This document shows positions 9,124-32,068 of a stretch of 33,416 nucleotides of DNA, piece after piece (position 1 is the first letter of the stretch; each line of letters opens with the position of its first letter). This stretch comes from Candidatus Aminicenantota bacterium (GTDB lineage: Bacteria > Acidobacteriota > Aminicenantia > UBA2199), in NCBI GenBank assembly GCA_011772425.1, contig WVZO01000065.1, positions 3,618 to 37,033 on the forward strand, in the 5' to 3' direction. Made by a program: the position numbers and the translations under genes. The notes under the pieces were generated by a model. It was given only the letters and a program-made list of their open reading frames with translations, was not told where the DNA came from and did no database searches.

Positions 9124-9152
9124 GTTTTCCTTGCCTAGCGACTTTTTTTTAT

Positions 9153-9366
9153 AAAAAGTTTTGCAGGGTCCAGGGGCGGTTTTTCAAAAGAGCCCCTGGC
9201 CGCCGGAGGCAAAAAAAAAGTTCTTTTAGAGTTTTAATAGTAATTCAGGATGGGCAGGCTGAAGGTTATATAAATTTTTTTCGATTTTCTGCCCATCCTG
9301 TAGATAAAAATATGGAGCAGTAGATCCACACGGAGGGCATCAGCTTTTTCAGAGTGCCCGTGCGGT
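9153..9366 (-). repeat. Structured dispersed intergenic element, copy B (inverted relative to copy A)
   Basis: Hairpins 9170-9199 (CCAGGGGC/GCCCCTGG), 9246-9300 (CAGGATGGGCAG/CTGCCCATCCTG), 9326-9365 (CCACACGG/CCGTGCGG); reverse complement aligns to copy A. Confidence 0.8.
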
Positions 9367-9444: not shown

Positions 9445-9996
9445 CTATTTAATATTGCTTAAAAGCCTATTAAATTCCTCCTGAAAATCTTTTTCCTCAT
9501 AAGAAAGTGATTTTAATTGCCTTTTGATATATTTAATATCGGCATTACTGTTTTTTATTAGAATTTTTCGCGCATCTTCTATGTCCCTCGGACGCCCGGA
9601 GAATATTTTAAAGATAATTAAATCTTCCAATGAAGCATATTTTACGACAGTATCATTTATTGTTACCTGGTTTGCCCTTTTGATGGCCTCTTGTTCAAAG
9701 GGAGAAAAAGAAAAAATCACATCTACCCTGATGCCGCTTTTAGCTTCAATCAGTGGCAAAACCATGGTTTGTTTGACAAACTGGTGTAAATCTTTTGGAA
9801 GCGGTTTCAATGAAATATCTTTCATTATCTTTACGATTTTATCTACCGCGTCGATGTTCAACCCGATAGTAATATCGATATCCCTGGTCAACCGGGGTTC
9901 ACCATAAAGCAACACCGCCTGCCCACCGATTATGATATAAGGAATATCGTGCGTTTCGAATTGCCTGGCGATATTTACAAGTAATTCTTTGAACAT
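9445..9996 (-). CDS. Nucleotidyltransferase-fold protein (AbiEii/DUF6036-like)
   Basis: IPYIIIGGQAVLLYGEPRLTRDIDITIG (GG..A....G..R.T.DiD) and distal VDVIFSF; ends SLEDLIIFKIFSGRPRDIEDARKIL. Confidence 0.88.
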   Translation of the reverse strand: MFKELLVNIARQFETHDIPYIIIGGQAVLLYGEPRLTRDIDITIGLNIDAVDKIVKIMKDISLKPLPKDLHQFVKQTMVLPLIEAKSGIRVDVIFSFSPFEQEAIKRANQVTINDTVVKYASLEDLIIFKIFSGRPRDIEDARKILIKNSNADIKYIKRQLKSLSYEEKDFQEEFNRLLSNIK

Positions 9997-10474: not shown

Positions 10475-10705
10475 TAAAATCATTCCCACATTAATGGAAA
10501 TGGTTCACACAACGATAGAAATCATTGCCACAGTGATAGAAATGACTCACACAGCGATAGAAATCGTTCCCACAGTGATAGAAATGACTCACACAGCGAT
10601 AGAAATCATTACTACAGTGATAGAAATGACTCACACAATGGTAGAAATCGTTCCCACAATGATTGAAATGGCTCACACAGCGATAGAAATGACTCCCACA
10701 AGCCA
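10475..10705. repeat. 21-bp minisatellite (~11 units, alternating as a 42-bp higher-order unit)
   Basis: Units such as atagaaatgactcacacagcg / atagaaatcgttcccacagtg; direct reading. Confidence 0.95.
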
Positions 10706-11199
10706 GGAAGGGTAAAATAAAAAAGGGACAGTCAGAAAGCGCTCAGAAAGCGCCGATCAAAACCGGCAGGAGGTCGAAATAAAGTGCCAGTTAAATAATT
10801 TCACAGGGTTTCATTACGCTGATGGCACAGAAGACCAAAAGCCGAAAGTAGGAGTATAAGTAGAAATACTCATTTTTTACAAAGGGGGTTGACTTTACTT
10901 CTCAAAGTATGGTAAAAATATTCTTCTGGTAAAACTGACAATGGTTAGATGGGAAACAACTGAGTTGGCAGGGCGGAAAGGAGTAAGTAAAAAAGTTCAA
11001 CCCTCAAGGGCGGAAGCTTGTGCGGAATTAGAACCGTCGATTTTGGGAAGGCGAAAAGGGGTGAACCTGGAAGAGGTCAGGCCCCAGGGGCGGGAACCCA
11101 GCCGTAATGAGCTTTATTTTTACTCTTTGTTGCCAAAGAATCCTTGATATACAAATTTCGTATAACAATTATTATTTGACTATTTGGGAGGTATTAAAA

Positions 11200-12018
11200 A
11201 TGATATCGAATTGGTTTTTAAAAGGGAATCATAAAAAATTTCGTAATAGTATGTCCTCAATTATTGATGATGCCGCAGTAGATCTTTGTAGGTCTGATTC
11301 GAGAGAAACTTTGGGAGATGAACATGAGCAATGCCAGCATCTCTTCACAAAAGTTTATACTTTGATGCGAGAGAGGCAGAAAGAGCTAACCGATAATCTT
11401 TTATGCTGTTCGAGAGTGCATGATCCCGTTATTGAACTTCGGTACTATAAGTCTAAGGTTAAAAGATCTCAAAATTCGAAAAATCCACAATTCATTGAAA
11501 GTGAAACAGGTGCTGATTTTGCCCTTGCTTTACGTATTGATCTTCCGGGTATTTTGCGAATTGAACGCTCCGTTCTTGGACAAGCTAAAGTGCTTGATAA
11601 GAAGTCAACACCAATCAATGAGGATCAACTTGAGACAATATTATCTGTTGGTGGTGCTGAATCGGCTACATTTATTATTTGGGGGACTCATACTTCACCA
11701 GTTGTAATAAGCGCTGATAACATAGCTTCTTTCTGCCAAACACAAAACACTATGCGTTTGAACTCAAGTGTGCTTCCATTGGGAAAACCTCTGTCTGAAT
11801 TTTTTTGTGATGCATTCATAAGTCTTTGGTTTGGAAAAAGTTATGACCCTGAAAAGGAGGGAGATAAACCACCATCATCTTCGATTCCAGTTCTTTACCA
11901 TTTTTTGCACCGAGGGAATCCTCCGCCCAATGTTGTTTATTTTGGTATAATGTCTGGACGTCGATTAAATATTCCACCAGGGGTATATGTGCACGATCGA
12001 GTCGATATTCCAGATTAA
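11200..12018 (+). CDS. Hypothetical protein with candidate PD-(D/E)XK-like motif (E-x-TGADF ... QAK)
   Basis: Start after GGGAGGTATTAAAAATG at 11200; FIESETGADFALALRIDLPGILRIERSVLGQAKVLD resembles E/D...D...QxK nuclease cores. Confidence 0.6.
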   Translation: MISNWFLKGNHKKFRNSMSSIIDDAAVDLCRSDSRETLGDEHEQCQHLFTKVYTLMRERQKELTDNLLCCSRVHDPVIELRYYKSKVKRSQNSKNPQFIESETGADFALALRIDLPGILRIERSVLGQAKVLDKKSTPINEDQLETILSVGGAESATFIIWGTHTSPVVISADNIASFCQTQNTMRLNSSVLPLGKPLSEFFCDAFISLWFGKSYDPEKEGDKPPSSSIPVLYHFLHRGNPPPNVVYFGIMSGRRLNIPPGVYVHDRVDIPD

Positions 12019-12121
12019 TCAAATAACAAAAGGCTCGAGCAGACAGCAAGAAACTCAGGCACGGGATTGCTTGGGAGAAAAAGTCGCCTGGCAAAAAATC
12101 TCGAAATTGGGAGAAATTGTT

Positions 12122-13321
12122 ATGAGTGATATTTTTATTAGTTATGCCCATTCTGATCGGGAAAGGGCACAAAACCTGGCAAAGGCCCTTAAGAAACAAG
12201 GATGGTCAGTCTGGTGGGACCGCCAAATCCCTCCTGGAAAAACATTTGATGATGTTATTGAAGAGGCATTGGATGCAGCTAAATGTATAATTGTGCTATG
12301 GTCAAAAGATTCTGTGACATCAGAGTGGGTAAAAGCTGAAGCAGCTGAGGGCAAAAAACGAAAAATTTTAATACCAATCTTGATAGATGATGTAAAAATT
12401 CCTCTCGAATTCCGACGAACCCACGCAGTACGGCTTGAGGATTGGGGAGGAACATTAACTCATAAAGAATTTGACAGCTTATTGGAAGCTGTCACAGCAA
12501 TTCTTGATGAACCTGTCATACAAAAAATATCACCTTCTCCAGAGCCGAAAAAGAATATCAACCAAGACAAGCAAAGAAAAACTAAAAGAAGGAGAGTATC
12601 AATATGGGTTACATTATTCTTCATAGTTATTTTTTTGATTGTAATATATTTTATCATAAGAACCATTTATCCATCGAAAGATTTTAAAGACCACAATACT
12701 ATAATAAATAATGGGCTAATAGCATATTATCCATTTAATGGAAATGCTAACGATGAAAGCGGTAATGCCTACCACGGAAGGGTTTATGGGGCGACTTTGA
12801 CAAGAGACAGATTGGGAAATGAAAATCGTGCATATGCATTTGATGGAATTAATGATTATATAGAAATTCCTGCAATGGGAGAAGTTGATGAATTTACCTT
12901 CGTAACCTGGTTGTATGTCAATACATTCATTGATGGTGATAAATTGAAGGTAATAAGAAATGATAGAGGTTGGTCAATTGGTGATATTCATTTTCAATTT
13001 GGATATACTGCTTGTGTTGGATTTGCTATACTTGGATGTGAGTACAATGTGTCTTTTGATTATCAATTTGATTCAGGCAAGTGGTACCATATTGCCGTTG
13101 CATTCAGCAAAAATAATCGTTTTGTAAGATTATATATAAACGGAAATTTTGAGCGAGAATGGATTTTTAGAAAACGTATAATATCTCCTACTCTCGGAGT
13201 TTCTTGGATAGGGGGTTGGGATAGTGAAAATAGATATTTTGATGGTATAATAGATGAATTCAGAATATATAATATAGCACTTTCGCAAGATGAGATTAAT
13301 TTATTATATACAATGAATTGA
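12122..13321 (+). CDS. TIR domain - transmembrane helix - LamG/concanavalin-like domain protein
   Basis: MSDIFISYAHSDRERAQNLAKALKKQGWSVWWDRQIPPGKTF...SEWVKAEAAEG (TIR), RRRVSIWVTLFFIVIFLIVIYFIIRTIY (TM), GLIAYYPFNGNANDESGNAYHGRVYGA...RAYAFDGINDYIEIP...GKWYHIAVAFSKNNRFVRLYINGNF...GIIDEFRIYNIALSQDEI (LamG). Confidence 0.92.
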   Translation: MSDIFISYAHSDRERAQNLAKALKKQGWSVWWDRQIPPGKTFDDVIEEALDAAKCIIVLWSKDSVTSEWVKAEAAEGKKRKILIPILIDDVKIPLEFRRTHAVRLEDWGGTLTHKEFDSLLEAVTAILDEPVIQKISPSPEPKKNINQDKQRKTKRRRVSIWVTLFFIVIFLIVIYFIIRTIYPSKDFKDHNTIINNGLIAYYPFNGNANDESGNAYHGRVYGATLTRDRLGNENRAYAFDGINDYIEIPAMGEVDEFTFVTWLYVNTFIDGDKLKVIRNDRGWSIGDIHFQFGYTACVGFAILGCEYNVSFDYQFDSGKWYHIAVAFSKNNRFVRLYINGNFEREWIFRKRIISPTLGVSWIGGWDSENRYFDGIIDEFRIYNIALSQDEINLLYTMN

Positions 13322-13368: not shown

Positions 13369-14409
13369 TCATAAAGAAATATACCCGGCGGCAACAATGA
13401 TGTCATCCTGGTAAAAGGCTCCTATTTGACCGGGGGTAACCGATTTTTCCGGTTTTGCAAATTTTGCCTTTATATACTCCTTTGAAACTTCAGTGATTTC
13501 AACCTCTGAAAATGGCGTCATGTACCTTATCTTCACTTTAAACACATCGCCGGTTTTGATTTCCTTCCAGTATACCGGTTTAGCAACCGTCAGCGTATCC
13601 GCATAAAGATGTTTTTCTTCCCCCAGGGTGACGGTATTATTTTGAACATCTTTTTTTACCACGTAAAGTTTCCTGTCCGAGGCAAAACCGGTTCCCCGGC
13701 GCTGCCCAATGGTGAAGTAAACCGCCCCTTTATGTTTACCGATTTTATTTCCCCTGACATCCAGGAAATCCCCCGGTTTAAAATATCGCTTTGGCAGGTG
13801 TTTTTTTAAGTAATCGATTAGTTTTTTATCATGCAGAAAACAGACATCCTGGCTTTCTTCTTTATTCACCAGCGGCAGGTCTTCTACCTTTTTCCTGACT
13901 TCTTCGATAGTTAAAGCAGAGATGGGGAAAATCACCCGCTTTAACGCTTCTTCTCCGATCATGGAGAGGAAATAGATTTGCGATTTTGTCCGGTCTTTGG
14001 GTTCGGTTAGAAAATAATGCCCATTGACCAGGGTTTTAGCCGCATAGTGGCCGGTGGCGTAGAAATCTGCCTGTTGGGTTTTGAGGGCTTCTTGCATCAA
14101 GAGGTTAAATTTTATGTTATTGTTGCAAGCCACACAGGGATTGGGCGTGAGGCTGGCGGCATAGGCACGCAGAAAGTAGTCGATGACTTTTTCCTGGAAC
14201 GGCGTTCTCATGTCGATAATTTTCAAGGGAACAGTCAACACTTGGGCCAGGTGTTTGAGTTTTTCAAAGCGTTGATCTTCGCCCTTGATGCCCAATTTCA
14301 TGGTCATGGCCTGCACATTGTAATCCTGTTCTTTCAACAAAACCACAGAAGCGGTGGAATCTTTTCCCCCGCTAAGGGCGACAACCACTTTTTGTTTGCG
14401 GTTAGTCAT
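13369..14409 (-). CDS. mnmA: tRNA 2-thiouridine synthase MnmA-like
   Basis: ALSGGKDSTASVVLL PP-loop, LTPNPCVACNNNIKFNLL, ATGHYA, KDRTKSQIYFLSMI, ESQDVCFL, GAVYFTIGQRRGTGFASDRKLYVV. Confidence 0.93.
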   Translation of the reverse strand: MTNRKQKVVVALSGGKDSTASVVLLKEQDYNVQAMTMKLGIKGEDQRFEKLKHLAQVLTVPLKIIDMRTPFQEKVIDYFLRAYAASLTPNPCVACNNNIKFNLLMQEALKTQQADFYATGHYAAKTLVNGHYFLTEPKDRTKSQIYFLSMIGEEALKRVIFPISALTIEEVRKKVEDLPLVNKEESQDVCFLHDKKLIDYLKKHLPKRYFKPGDFLDVRGNKIGKHKGAVYFTIGQRRGTGFASDRKLYVVKKDVQNNTVTLGEEKHLYADTLTVAKPVYWKEIKTGDVFKVKIRYMTPFSEVEITEVSKEYIKAKFAKPEKSVTPGQIGAFYQDDIIVAAGYISL

Positions 14410-17659: not shown

Positions 17660-18373
17660 CTAAGACCGTGCCAGAGTTATTGCTGCCACATCTGCGGCGT
17701 GTTTGCTTAACAATTGCGCGCATTTGGTAACAGTTGTTCCCGTGGTGTAGACATCATCGATCAACAGGACTTTTTTTCCTTTTATCTCCTGGGGATTTTT
17801 CAGTTTAAAGGCGCCGTCCAGGTTTCTTATTCGTTTTGCTTTGCTTAAACCGGCCTGGGGTGGGGTTTCCTTGACTTTTACCAGGTAGCCGGATAACAGC
17901 TTAATTCCCAGGCGTTGGCATAAAATTTTCGCTGCTTCAAGGATAGGCCCAAACTCTCGCTTCCTGCTTTTGTCCGGTGGAACCGGGACAATACCATCGA
18001 AATCCTCGTTGATCACGTCGTTAACCAATTCGATATAGTAATCGACAAATAGATTCTTTAATTTTTCAACTCCGCTGTATTTGTACAAGAGGATCAAATC
18101 TTTCATCAGGCCCTGGTACCGAGAATATGAGACGTGTTTTCGAAAAGGAGGGGGATTGAGGATGCATTCCCCACACCTGTCATAATCATTGTCCATTATC
18201 CTGCCGCATATACGGCATTGGGGATCGCGGTTAAGGGTAATGGTTGCCCGGCATTCCCGGCATACGCATACCCTGGCTTCATCGCTAAAAACCAGGGGCT
18301 CTCCACACCCTTTGCAAGAAGAAAGAAAAATAGAAAGCTGCAAACGATGAAAGAATTCCTTAAACCACCGCAT
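17660..18373 (-). CDS. ComF-family phosphoribosyltransferase (amidophosphoribosyltransferase-like)
   Basis: Zn-ribbon CKGCGEPLVF...CRICGRIMDNDYDRCGEC, and PRPP motif KKVLLIDDVYTTGTTVTKCAQLL. Confidence 0.92.
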   Translation of the reverse strand: MRWFKEFFHRLQLSIFLSSCKGCGEPLVFSDEARVCVCRECRATITLNRDPQCRICGRIMDNDYDRCGECILNPPPFRKHVSYSRYQGLMKDLILLYKYSGVEKLKNLFVDYYIELVNDVINEDFDGIVPVPPDKSRKREFGPILEAAKILCQRLGIKLLSGYLVKVKETPPQAGLSKAKRIRNLDGAFKLKNPQEIKGKKVLLIDDVYTTGTTVTKCAQLLSKHAADVAAITLARS

Positions 18374-29074: not shown

Positions 29075-31174
29075 ATGGAAAAGGAATCAGATAAAAAAGA
29101 TTTTTTCATCAGCTATAACCGCAATGATGAAAAGGCTGCCGAATGGATAGCCTGGCAGCTTGAAGAAGCGGGTTATACAACCTTTATCCAGGCATGGGAC
29201 TTTCGTCCTGGAAATAACTTTGTTGCTGAGATGGATAAAGCAGTAAAAAAATGTGAACGCACCATTGCAGTGCTTTCTGAGAATTATCTTCAATCCGGGT
29301 TTACCAAAGCAGAGTGGACTGCTGCTTTTGCCAAAGACCCCACCGGTGAAAAACGATTATTAATCCCGATTCGTGTTAAGGATTGTGATGTCGAAGGTCT
29401 TCTGGGTCAAATTATTTATATTGACCTGGTAGTAAAAGAGGATAAGAATTACATTGGCCCGGTGTGTTTGAAGGAAAAGAAGGTGAAAAAGAAGCTGTTG
29501 GATGAGATACAGGACAGGTTAAAACCAGCAGAATCCCCTCCTTTCAATGGATTTGGTAATGGAACTCGACCTGTTTCCGCCGGGATAGACAGCGACGAAA
29601 TACTTAAAAAAAGAGGAGATTATCTCAAGGAAGTATTAGAGAAAGCCATCAAAAGTAATTACCATATGGAATTGAATCTGGAGCAAGAAATCGAAAAAGA
29701 GATTGAAGTAGAGGATGAAAAAACAGGAGAAATCGAAAAAAGGAAAGAATTGGTATGGGAAGCAGTGGAATTAGAAAAAATATTAACAGACCAAAACAAC
29801 TATATCCTTATTAATCCTTCCGGTATGGGAAAAACAACCTTTTTAACCCATGCAGCTTCCAAGCTTCTCGAAATCGATAACGGTTATAAGTTCCTTCCGT
29901 TTATTACTACCTGCATCGACTTAAATCAAAGAGGAACCGCTATATCTATAAACGATTTTATCCAAAAAAACCTGGAATCTACTTATTACAATTCTCAGAC
30001 ATCACTGATCGACAAAGAATGGGAAAACCTCTGTATATTGATGGATGCGCTGGACCAGGCCAGGGATGTAAATGACATCGTTTCTTCACTCCTTCTTCAA
30101 AATCAATACTGCAATTATAAAAAGGCCAAAATCATCCTATCATCCAGGCAAAATACCGCGGATAAGGTAAGAGAAGGATTTAACAAAATCCGGCTCAAAC
30201 TCCCTGAAGATGATGAGGTGCGGCATTACCTTGGAGAAAAACATTATAACAATTTAAAATCGTTAATCGATTCTTCAAGAGAACTGGTAACCGTTCCTGT
30301 GCTTCTTGAAATGCTCAGGATAATTTCAGAAAGAGGAGATATCTCCGCCAAAATAGATAACCGTACCAGTCTATACTCTGAATTTACCCGGATTCTTATT
30401 GACCAGGAGCGAAACAAACCCAGGTATTGGCAAAATCCTCCATTAATAGACGATTTTATCGATTCTGAATTGGAAGAAAGCCTGGAAAAAATCGCCTTTT
30501 TCTCCCTTGCTAATCACGAAATCCTTGAAATAGGAAAAGATAAACTTATAAGACATTTCGATTCACCGGAAAAAAAATATGCTCTTTTAAACGCAGGAAT
30601 CCTACTGGAATTATTTGAAGACAGGGAATTAAAATTAATTTTCCGGCATCAATCCTTCCAGGCCTATTTTGCTGCCAGGTATATATATAACCGGCAGCCC
30701 GAATATTTTAACCAACTCACGAATGATATTGCCTTTTTCTACAGCGATATATGGTACGAAGTTTTACGATTTTTTATTGGACTTGTGAAAGACCCTCAAA
30801 AAGCAGAAGAAATGATTCATTCAATTTATCAACAGAAAGACAAAAAAGATGATCTCAATCATTCACTAAGATTAATCTTTGCATTTTTTCTCATGTCTGA
30901 GACACGAGTGAGCAACGAAAAAGTTCTTGAATTGTATAAACAATTGGGTAATCTATTAAAAAATAATGTAAGTAATTTGGAATTCATCAAATCAAATATC
31001 GATAAATTCAATACCGGTAATAGAGATCAAAGGCGAAAAACTGATATTATACTAAAACTACTCCTTAAGGATGATTACTGGTATACCCGAAAAGTTGCAG
31101 TGGAAGTTTTAGGAAAGATAGGGATCTCAAAAGACATTCCACTGTTAAAAAAACTGCTCAAAGATAAATCCTAG
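29075..31174 (+). CDS. TIR-NACHT (STAND NTPase) protein, N-terminal part of a TIR-NACHT-HEAT gene interrupted by in-frame TAG
   Basis: KDFFISYNRNDEKAAEWIAWQLEEAGYTTFIQAWDFRPGNNFV...FTKAEW (TIR); YILINPSGMGKTTFLTHAA (P-loop), LCILMDALDQARDV (Walker B), KIILSSRQN, FRHQSFQAYFAARYIYN (NACHT); final RKVAVEVLGKIGISKDIPLLKKLL (HEAT). Confidence 0.92.
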   Translation: MEKESDKKDFFISYNRNDEKAAEWIAWQLEEAGYTTFIQAWDFRPGNNFVAEMDKAVKKCERTIAVLSENYLQSGFTKAEWTAAFAKDPTGEKRLLIPIRVKDCDVEGLLGQIIYIDLVVKEDKNYIGPVCLKEKKVKKKLLDEIQDRLKPAESPPFNGFGNGTRPVSAGIDSDEILKKRGDYLKEVLEKAIKSNYHMELNLEQEIEKEIEVEDEKTGEIEKRKELVWEAVELEKILTDQNNYILINPSGMGKTTFLTHAASKLLEIDNGYKFLPFITTCIDLNQRGTAISINDFIQKNLESTYYNSQTSLIDKEWENLCILMDALDQARDVNDIVSSLLLQNQYCNYKKAKIILSSRQNTADKVREGFNKIRLKLPEDDEVRHYLGEKHYNNLKSLIDSSRELVTVPVLLEMLRIISERGDISAKIDNRTSLYSEFTRILIDQERNKPRYWQNPPLIDDFIDSELEESLEKIAFFSLANHEILEIGKDKLIRHFDSPEKKYALLNAGILLELFEDRELKLIFRHQSFQAYFAARYIYNRQPEYFNQLTNDIAFFYSDIWYEVLRFFIGLVKDPQKAEEMIHSIYQQKDKKDDLNHSLRLIFAFFLMSETRVSNEKVLELYKQLGNLLKNNVSNLEFIKSNIDKFNTGNRDQRRKTDIILKLLLKDDYWYTRKVAVEVLGKIGISKDIPLLKKLLKDKS

Positions 31175-32068
31175 CCTGTAAAGAAGGCTGCAAAAACCTC
31201 AATAGCCTTCTTACTGTCAAAAAAACCCCTCAGTGTTAAAAAGAGTCATGTTCGAAGGTTTAAAGCCAAAGCTTTGGGTAAGACATGGACTTCAAAGAAT
31301 ATTCCACAGTTAGTATCCTATCTTGGGCATTCTGAGTGGCGTAACCGAAAGGCTGCAGTGGAAGTTTTAGGCAAGATAGGGTCTTCAAAATACACCGAAC
31401 TTTTAGAAAATTTGCTCAGTGATAATATTAGCTATGTCCGACGTTATGCAGCCGAGGCATTAGGTAATATTGGAACCTTAGAAAATACTGATTTACTAAA
31501 AAAGCCGCTTAGTGATGATGTTTATTTTGTCCGACATGCTTCAGTCACAGCTTTAGGTAAAATAGGGACCTCAAAGGACATCAAACTGTTAAAAAAACTG
31601 CTCAGCGATGATGTTAGTTCTGTCCGACGTGCTGCTGTTGAAGCTCTAGGTAAGATCGGGACCTCAAAAAATATTTCAATGATAATACCTCTGCTCAAGG
31701 AAAAAGAGGGTTTTGTCCGACGTGCCGCAGCCGAAGCTTTAGGAAATATCGGAACTTCAGAAAACATTCAATCGTTAAAACCACTAATCAATGATCCTGT
31801 CTGGCGCGTTCGATGTGCCGCAACCGAAACTTTAGGTAAGATCGGAACCTCAAAGGATATTTCAATGTTAAAACCTCTGCTAATGGAAAAAGAGATTTTT
31901 GTCCGCCGTGCTGCTATTGAAGCATTAGGTAAGATCGGAACCTCAAAAAACATTCAAATGTTAGAACAATTCCTCAGTAAAAAGGACAAAAATGTTCGAC
32001 GTGCCGCAGCATTAGCGATTGAAAGTATTTATAAAAGGATGGAACCAAAATTAAAAATTATAACTTAG
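31175..32068 (+). pseudogene. HEAT-repeat continuation of the TIR-NACHT gene in the same reading frame after the TAG
   Basis: Frame is identical to 29075..31174 (open from 31175); repeats VRRAAVEALGKIGTSKNIxxLxxLLxxxxxx of 31 aa. ORF caller starts it at TTG 31274. Confidence 0.8.

Follow-up and report, generated by a model that had tools for sequence, protein, structure and literature searches.

A putative cassette-derived PD-(D/E)XK-like defence nuclease beside a membrane TIR gene in a Candidatus Aminicenantota genome

The DNA analysed (hereafter the window) was a stretch of 33,416 nucleotides from a Candidatus Aminicenantota bacterium. Two genes were located on its + strand. ORF1 (11200–12018; 272 aa), which belongs, as a divergent representative, to a PD-(D/E)XK-like family that has no name so far, was preceded by a ribosome-binding site read from the sequence (GGGAGG, 11186–11191, + strand) and carried an E-x2-TGADF-x20-QAK core motif (11497–11589, + strand; E100, D106, Q128, and K130). 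ORF2 (12122–13321; 399 aa) encoded a TIR-TM-LamG protein and had its own ribosome site (GGGAG, 12109–12113, + strand). The gap between the two genes was 103 bp, and both are real genes. The original prediction had described an ORF with E-x-TGADF-(~20)-GQAK followed by a TIR gene on the same strand; both were borne out, the motif reading ESETGADF-x20-QAK. An attC left-half-like element (AAATAACAAAAGGCTCGAGCAGACAG, 12021–12046, + strand) was found 3 bp past the stop codon of ORF1, and a dispersed genome repeat of about AAAAAGTCGCCTGGCAAAAAA was located at 12074–12100, between ORF1 and ORF2. When the intergenic DNA was used as the query, the own genome gave 39 further weak matches, which for the most part fell on the dispersed repeat, and no further copies of the attC-like part came back. 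A related form of the repeat seems to be present at 9130–9160.

Upstream of ORF1, a DUF6036/DUF2204/AbiEii-like nucleotidyltransferase gene was located at 9445–9996 on the minus strand, followed by a 42-bp tandem array at 10477–10700 consisting of two 21-bp halves, CACACAGYGATAGAAAT. This array was open in frame on both strands, yet it looks non-coding. The downstream neighbour of ORF2 was mnmA, a tRNA-thiouridylase gene (13369–14409, minus strand). Of the repeats and nucleotidyltransferase genes predicted to flank the locus, the tandem array and one nucleotidyltransferase gene were present on the upstream side; the downstream gene was not a nucleotidyltransferase. Synteny comparison showed that the neighbours of mnmA differed in two genomes of the same genus (G001 and G003), so no empty insertion site could be read. 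Elsewhere in the window, at 29075–32068, a TIR-NACHT protein (699 aa) and, next to it, a HEAT-repeat protein of 264 aa constitute a second, STAND-like defence candidate; the gene of the HEAT-repeat protein contained 93-bp tandem repeats.

Domain analysis of ORF2 revealed a TIR_2 domain (aa 4–110; 12131–12451, + strand; E 1e-25), a transmembrane helix predicted by hydropathy at about aa 161–183 (12602–12670, + strand) with a Lys/Arg-rich stretch just before it, and a Laminin_G_3/ConA-like domain (aa 241–393; 12842–13300, + strand; E 5e-21) predicted to be extracytoplasmic. The candidate NADase glutamate, E73, aligned with the catalytic-glutamate position of AbTIR-type NADases. The TIR-TM-LamG architecture first proposed for ORF2 therefore agrees with the TIR_2 match, the hydrophobic stretch and the Laminin_G_3 match. 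PADLOC gave SAVED_TIR as the best model, followed by the ThsB and TIR-pAgo models, which matched the TIR part only. ORF2 shares the TIR fold and the NADase glutamate with Thoeris ThsB, CBASS Cap12 and TIR-APAZ short-Argonaute effectors; however, it differs from these in that a TM helix links up with a LamG domain on the outside and in having no adjoining ThsA, CD-NTase, SAVED or Argonaute gene. No ThsA-type (SIR2/SLOG) domain was detected among the window proteins scanned, so ORF2 could not be assigned to Thoeris. It could not be assigned to CBASS either, since the nearest nucleotidyltransferase was the DUF6036/AbiEii-like one, 1.2 kb upstream of ORF1 and on the opposite strand. Plausibly, ORF2 is a membrane receptor that would consume NAD+ on activation.

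ORF2 had 22 matches in the own genome, and about 20 of these were TIR domains. One belonged to a second TIR-TM protein (L024, contig C519), whose TIR domain was 52% identical and whose outside domain was different. The outer domain appears to have been swapped between these TIR-TM paralogues.

ORF1 alone as the query had no match in Pfam, PADLOC, NCBIfam or the PDB, and nothing was found in homology searches of plasmids, phages, 100 relatives, 396 genomes of the phylum and the genome contigs. Plasmid matches at E 5–10 were regarded as noise. The degenerate DNA motif of ORF1 occurred once in the window and not at all in shuffles. In an earlier motif scan, most matches were to an unrelated phage structural protein. 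The family was recovered with the pattern E-x2-TGAD-[FLIMV]-x20-QAK, searched at the DNA level in 85,000 genomes plus viral sequences. The scan yielded 20 genome loci and one true viral locus; 15 of the 20 genome loci and the viral one were clear relatives, and the remaining genome loci were chance matches or DUF6615-like proteins. Two more were added later: L087, the second relative in a phage contig, and L088, a distant one from a plasmid (47.9 bits). Family members were about 320 aa long, were found in bacteria, archaea and phages, and had SHEERLTG-x-LVSE and E-x2-TGAD...QAK in common. Those relatives that were scanned against family models gave no match.

A profile built without ORF1 scored ORF1 at 47.5 bits over residues 98–213, and with the motif masked the score was 9.7 bits, compared with at most 7.7 in 5000 shuffles. 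The E, TGAD and QxK positions were fully conserved in the family, and D106, Q128 and K130 were invariant in 18 aligned proteins. These comparisons make ORF1, at the sequence level, clearly a divergent member of a family that is not represented by any model in Pfam, PADLOC or NCBIfam. ORF1 retained E100, T103–D106, Q128, K130, Q143 and P167. It had ERQKELTDN where the family has SHEERLTGN, and the conserved D138 position of the family was missing; ORF1 could therefore be inactive. The helix-1 glutamates of the family (E96/E97) aligned with Q60/K61 of ORF1, adjoining E62; in ORF1 this glutamate has thus moved or been lost. No missing N-terminus was found in the upstream frames.

The AlphaFold model of ORF1, built with 18 sequences, had an overall pLDDT of 60, with values of about 72–92 for residues 100–200 and above 80 for residues 121–200; the N-terminal 97 residues were modelled with low confidence. 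The core contained strands at 107–115, 119–131 and 156–161 with flanking helices. Foldseek analysis showed that the best matches were archaeal Hjc resolvases (E 3e-4, probability 1.0), followed by RecU. The model of one relative, L078, had a pLDDT of 88.5, and its best matches were weak ones of the same fold, including ACE1 (Cas4-like), PvuII, DpnI and MspJI. A search of viral structures with the family model gave weak matches only. Structure prediction of the 272-aa protein, put forward in the original prediction as a check, thus returned a nuclease fold core, and the PD-(D/E)XK call held for that core; the kinship of ORF1 with proteins in which the E, TGAD and QxK positions are fully conserved is clear. 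The Asp and (D/E/Q)xK residues expected of PD-(D/E)XK enzymes were present (D106, Q128, and K130). The models support a predicted PD-(D/E)XK core of the alpha-beta-beta-beta-alpha-beta type in ORF1, which may have nuclease activity.

Hjc/RecU resolvases and PvuII-type PD-(D/E)XK nucleases resemble the family of ORF1 in the core fold, the helix Glu, the Asp and the (E/Q)xK arrangement; however, no PDB chain matched ORF1 meaningfully by sequence or profile, and its family is larger, sporadic, and located in cassettes and phages. The restriction-endonuclease-like DUF6615 (PF20320) shares the TGAD-x20-QAK core, and three DUF6615-like proteins were obtained in the pattern scan (L069, L073, and L080), L073 matching PF20320 at E 2e-76. 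In contrast, ORF1 and its family did not match the DUF6615 model; they are set apart by a helical N-terminal region that bears SHEERLTG and by a different C-terminal half.

Analysis of the genomic settings showed that attC sites flanked at least 5 of the 17 relatives (L070, L078, L083, L065, and L075). The attC sites were canonical on both sides of L070 and present on both sides of L078. All of these sites and that of L072 were read from the sequence, and those of L070, L072, L078 and L083 were also scored by script. Simple attC finders overlooked several evident sites, whose arms were unequal. An integron-integrase-like recombinase was located upstream of L083 and a GmrSD/NsnA gene downstream. 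Two relatives were situated in phage contigs (L051 and L087). In both (L051, 4845–5804; L087, 5737–6825) the nuclease-family gene lay among phage structural genes, a superinfection-exclusion-like placement. A type II DNA methyltransferase ended 3 bp upstream of L084, and a methyltransferase and a TPR protein were found upstream of L079 and L074, respectively. A KwaB gene was located 40 bp upstream of L082; this arrangement (L082, 186–2225) may be a Kiwa variant. L068 had an HmaB-like gene on one side and an HmaC-like gene on the other, and after these came the TIR-APAZ protein of a short Argonaute system. A CAP12/PCTIR-type TIR gene lay downstream of L072, with an attC in between.

These neighbourhoods make a defence role of the family plausible. 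Integron cassettes have been reported to carry anti-phage genes, among them type II/IV restriction genes of reduced size (PMC12409362), and such storage of anti-phage genes fits the relatives of ORF1 well. The cassette genes (Darracq et al. 2025; Getz et al. 2025, reviewed in PMC12409362) likewise are single-gene attC cassettes encoding defence-type proteins and small restriction enzymes; in contrast to them, the ORF1 family lacks a Pfam/PADLOC/NCBIfam model, and no report of its being tested against phages was found.

The Hjc and RecU resolvases being the closest structural matches, ORF1 might instead be a DNA-repair nuclease that is unrelated to ORF2, the latter being an adhesion or signalling receptor with no part in defence. 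Adhesion proteins often contain LamG domains. However, the family was found in 0 of 395 other genomes of the phylum; such a sporadic spread is unlike that of a housekeeping repair enzyme, as are its locations in cassettes, phages and defence islands, and a TIR domain with the NADase glutamate suits immune effectors. A non-defence pair is therefore most improbable.

Position 12021 of the window was scored with an attC weight matrix constructed from nine left halves, none of them from the window. With 17.5 bits it came out on top of all 66,780 positions, the runner-up scoring 13.3, although the likeness had been seen by eye beforehand and the rank was not blind. Among 266,650 positions of the own genome, scores this high were obtained only at an integrase-side attC, at the attC of a SIR2-TIR gene and at the window site. 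A DNA pattern derived from two attC left halves matched those two sites only, while its reversed control gave 6 matches, and it was discarded as evidence. The right-half scan revealed no recognisable right half for the left half at 12021, so no complete attC was found downstream of ORF1.

The own genome encoded an integron integrase (TIGR02249, 457.7 bits, cut-off 265; contig C581). This locus (L130, 14674–16467) comprised the integrase gene and, past the 3' end of that gene, a single canonical attC together with an ORF of 194 aa; such a layout is of the inverse type. On contig C558 (L027, about 18278–18300, minus strand), a SIR2-TIR fusion gene stood directly before a full attC (AGCTAAC...GTTAGAC). 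Judged by the sequence and by a TIR match to ORF2, the genome of the window thus has a SIR2-TIR defence gene that is carried on a cassette. Since the genome has an integron integrase and an attC left half stands right after the stop codon of ORF1, we infer that this copy of ORF1 originated as a cassette whose attC was later truncated; the cassette origin of this copy rests on 26 bases.

The truncated attC and the dispersed repeat between ORF1 and ORF2, together with the altered SHEERLTG motif, the loss of D138 and the shortened N-terminus, would also suit a nuclease-family member that has decayed and become inactive, that is, a captured cassette in the course of being lost. However, 272 codons were still open behind a good ribosome site, and E100, D106, Q128, K130, Q143 and P167 were kept. 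Decay is accordingly rather unlikely.

The original prediction had further proposed that the two genes form one defence module. In such a module, the LamG/TIR protein would sense infection with the nuclease as a second effector, or the nuclease would detect DNA and the membrane TIR protein would kill the cell. The two genes shared a strand, were separated by 103 bp and were both preceded by a good ribosome site, and a + strand terminator-like site between them was absent; among 100 relatives, both genes were found in this genome only, and L072 provided a second nuclease-TIR neighbour pair. However, the relatives of ORF1 occurred singly, flanked by attC sites or within phages, the L072 pair was split by an attC and had a TIR of another type, an attC left half lay between ORF1 and ORF2, and the LamG domain would face outside the cytoplasm, separated from a DNA nuclease. 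In the neighbourhood survey, suggested as a further check, TIR genes made up 2 of 101 neighbour ORFs (16 loci), namely that of L072 and the TIR-APAZ short-Argonaute pair of L068. An adjacent TIR gene was found in 1 of the 17 relatives (L072), and a TIR two genes away in one other (L068); no close relatives of ORF1 occurred in the collections searched, and these counts therefore rest on family relatives. A recurrent pairing was thus lacking. A complete absence of TIR genes beside homologues of ORF1 had been named beforehand as telling against the pair; owing to L072, the absence was not strictly complete. Considering that TIR domains account for most of the 22 matches of ORF2 in the own genome, a chance TIR neighbour of ORF1 is unremarkable.

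A true two-gene module is therefore distinctly unlikely. Very unlikely, too, is a new kind of defence pair anchored in the membrane, in which a PD-(D/E)XK nuclease borne on a cassette would cooperate with a TIR receptor whose lectin-like domain lies outside. ORF2 is most likely a separate neighbour of ORF1 and not the second half of a two-gene system.

Taken together, ORF1 is probably a cassette-derived, stand-alone defence nuclease and a defence-type neighbour of the separate membrane TIR gene ORF2, with which it would form no obligate pair. As the family often travels as one gene, it appears to be self-sufficient. Most likely, ORF1 would have a restriction role, which is also the simplest mechanism, acting as a self-sufficient restriction-type DNA nuclease that would be type IV-like or dependent on a phage signal. 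The TGAD aspartate, the QxK pair and the helix glutamate would coordinate the metal, and invading DNA would be cut. Host DNA would be spared through absence of the recognised modification or, where one is present, by a partner methyltransferase. ORF1 would have arrived as an integron cassette and lost the right half of its attC afterwards. For ORF2, the presumed topology places the TIR domain inside the cell, followed by one transmembrane helix and the LamG domain outside. On triggering by the outer domain or by oligomerisation, it may deplete NAD+ or make an NAD-derived signal.

An apparent two-gene defence operon can thus be a chance neighbourhood that arose from cassette capture, which calls for caution in guilt-by-association scans. 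The family to which ORF1 belongs is a new PD-(D/E)XK family without a public model, widespread but rare in archaea, many bacterial phyla and phages, and with a cassette lifestyle. Its ties to integron cassettes and defence islands provide a short list of one-gene anti-phage candidates.
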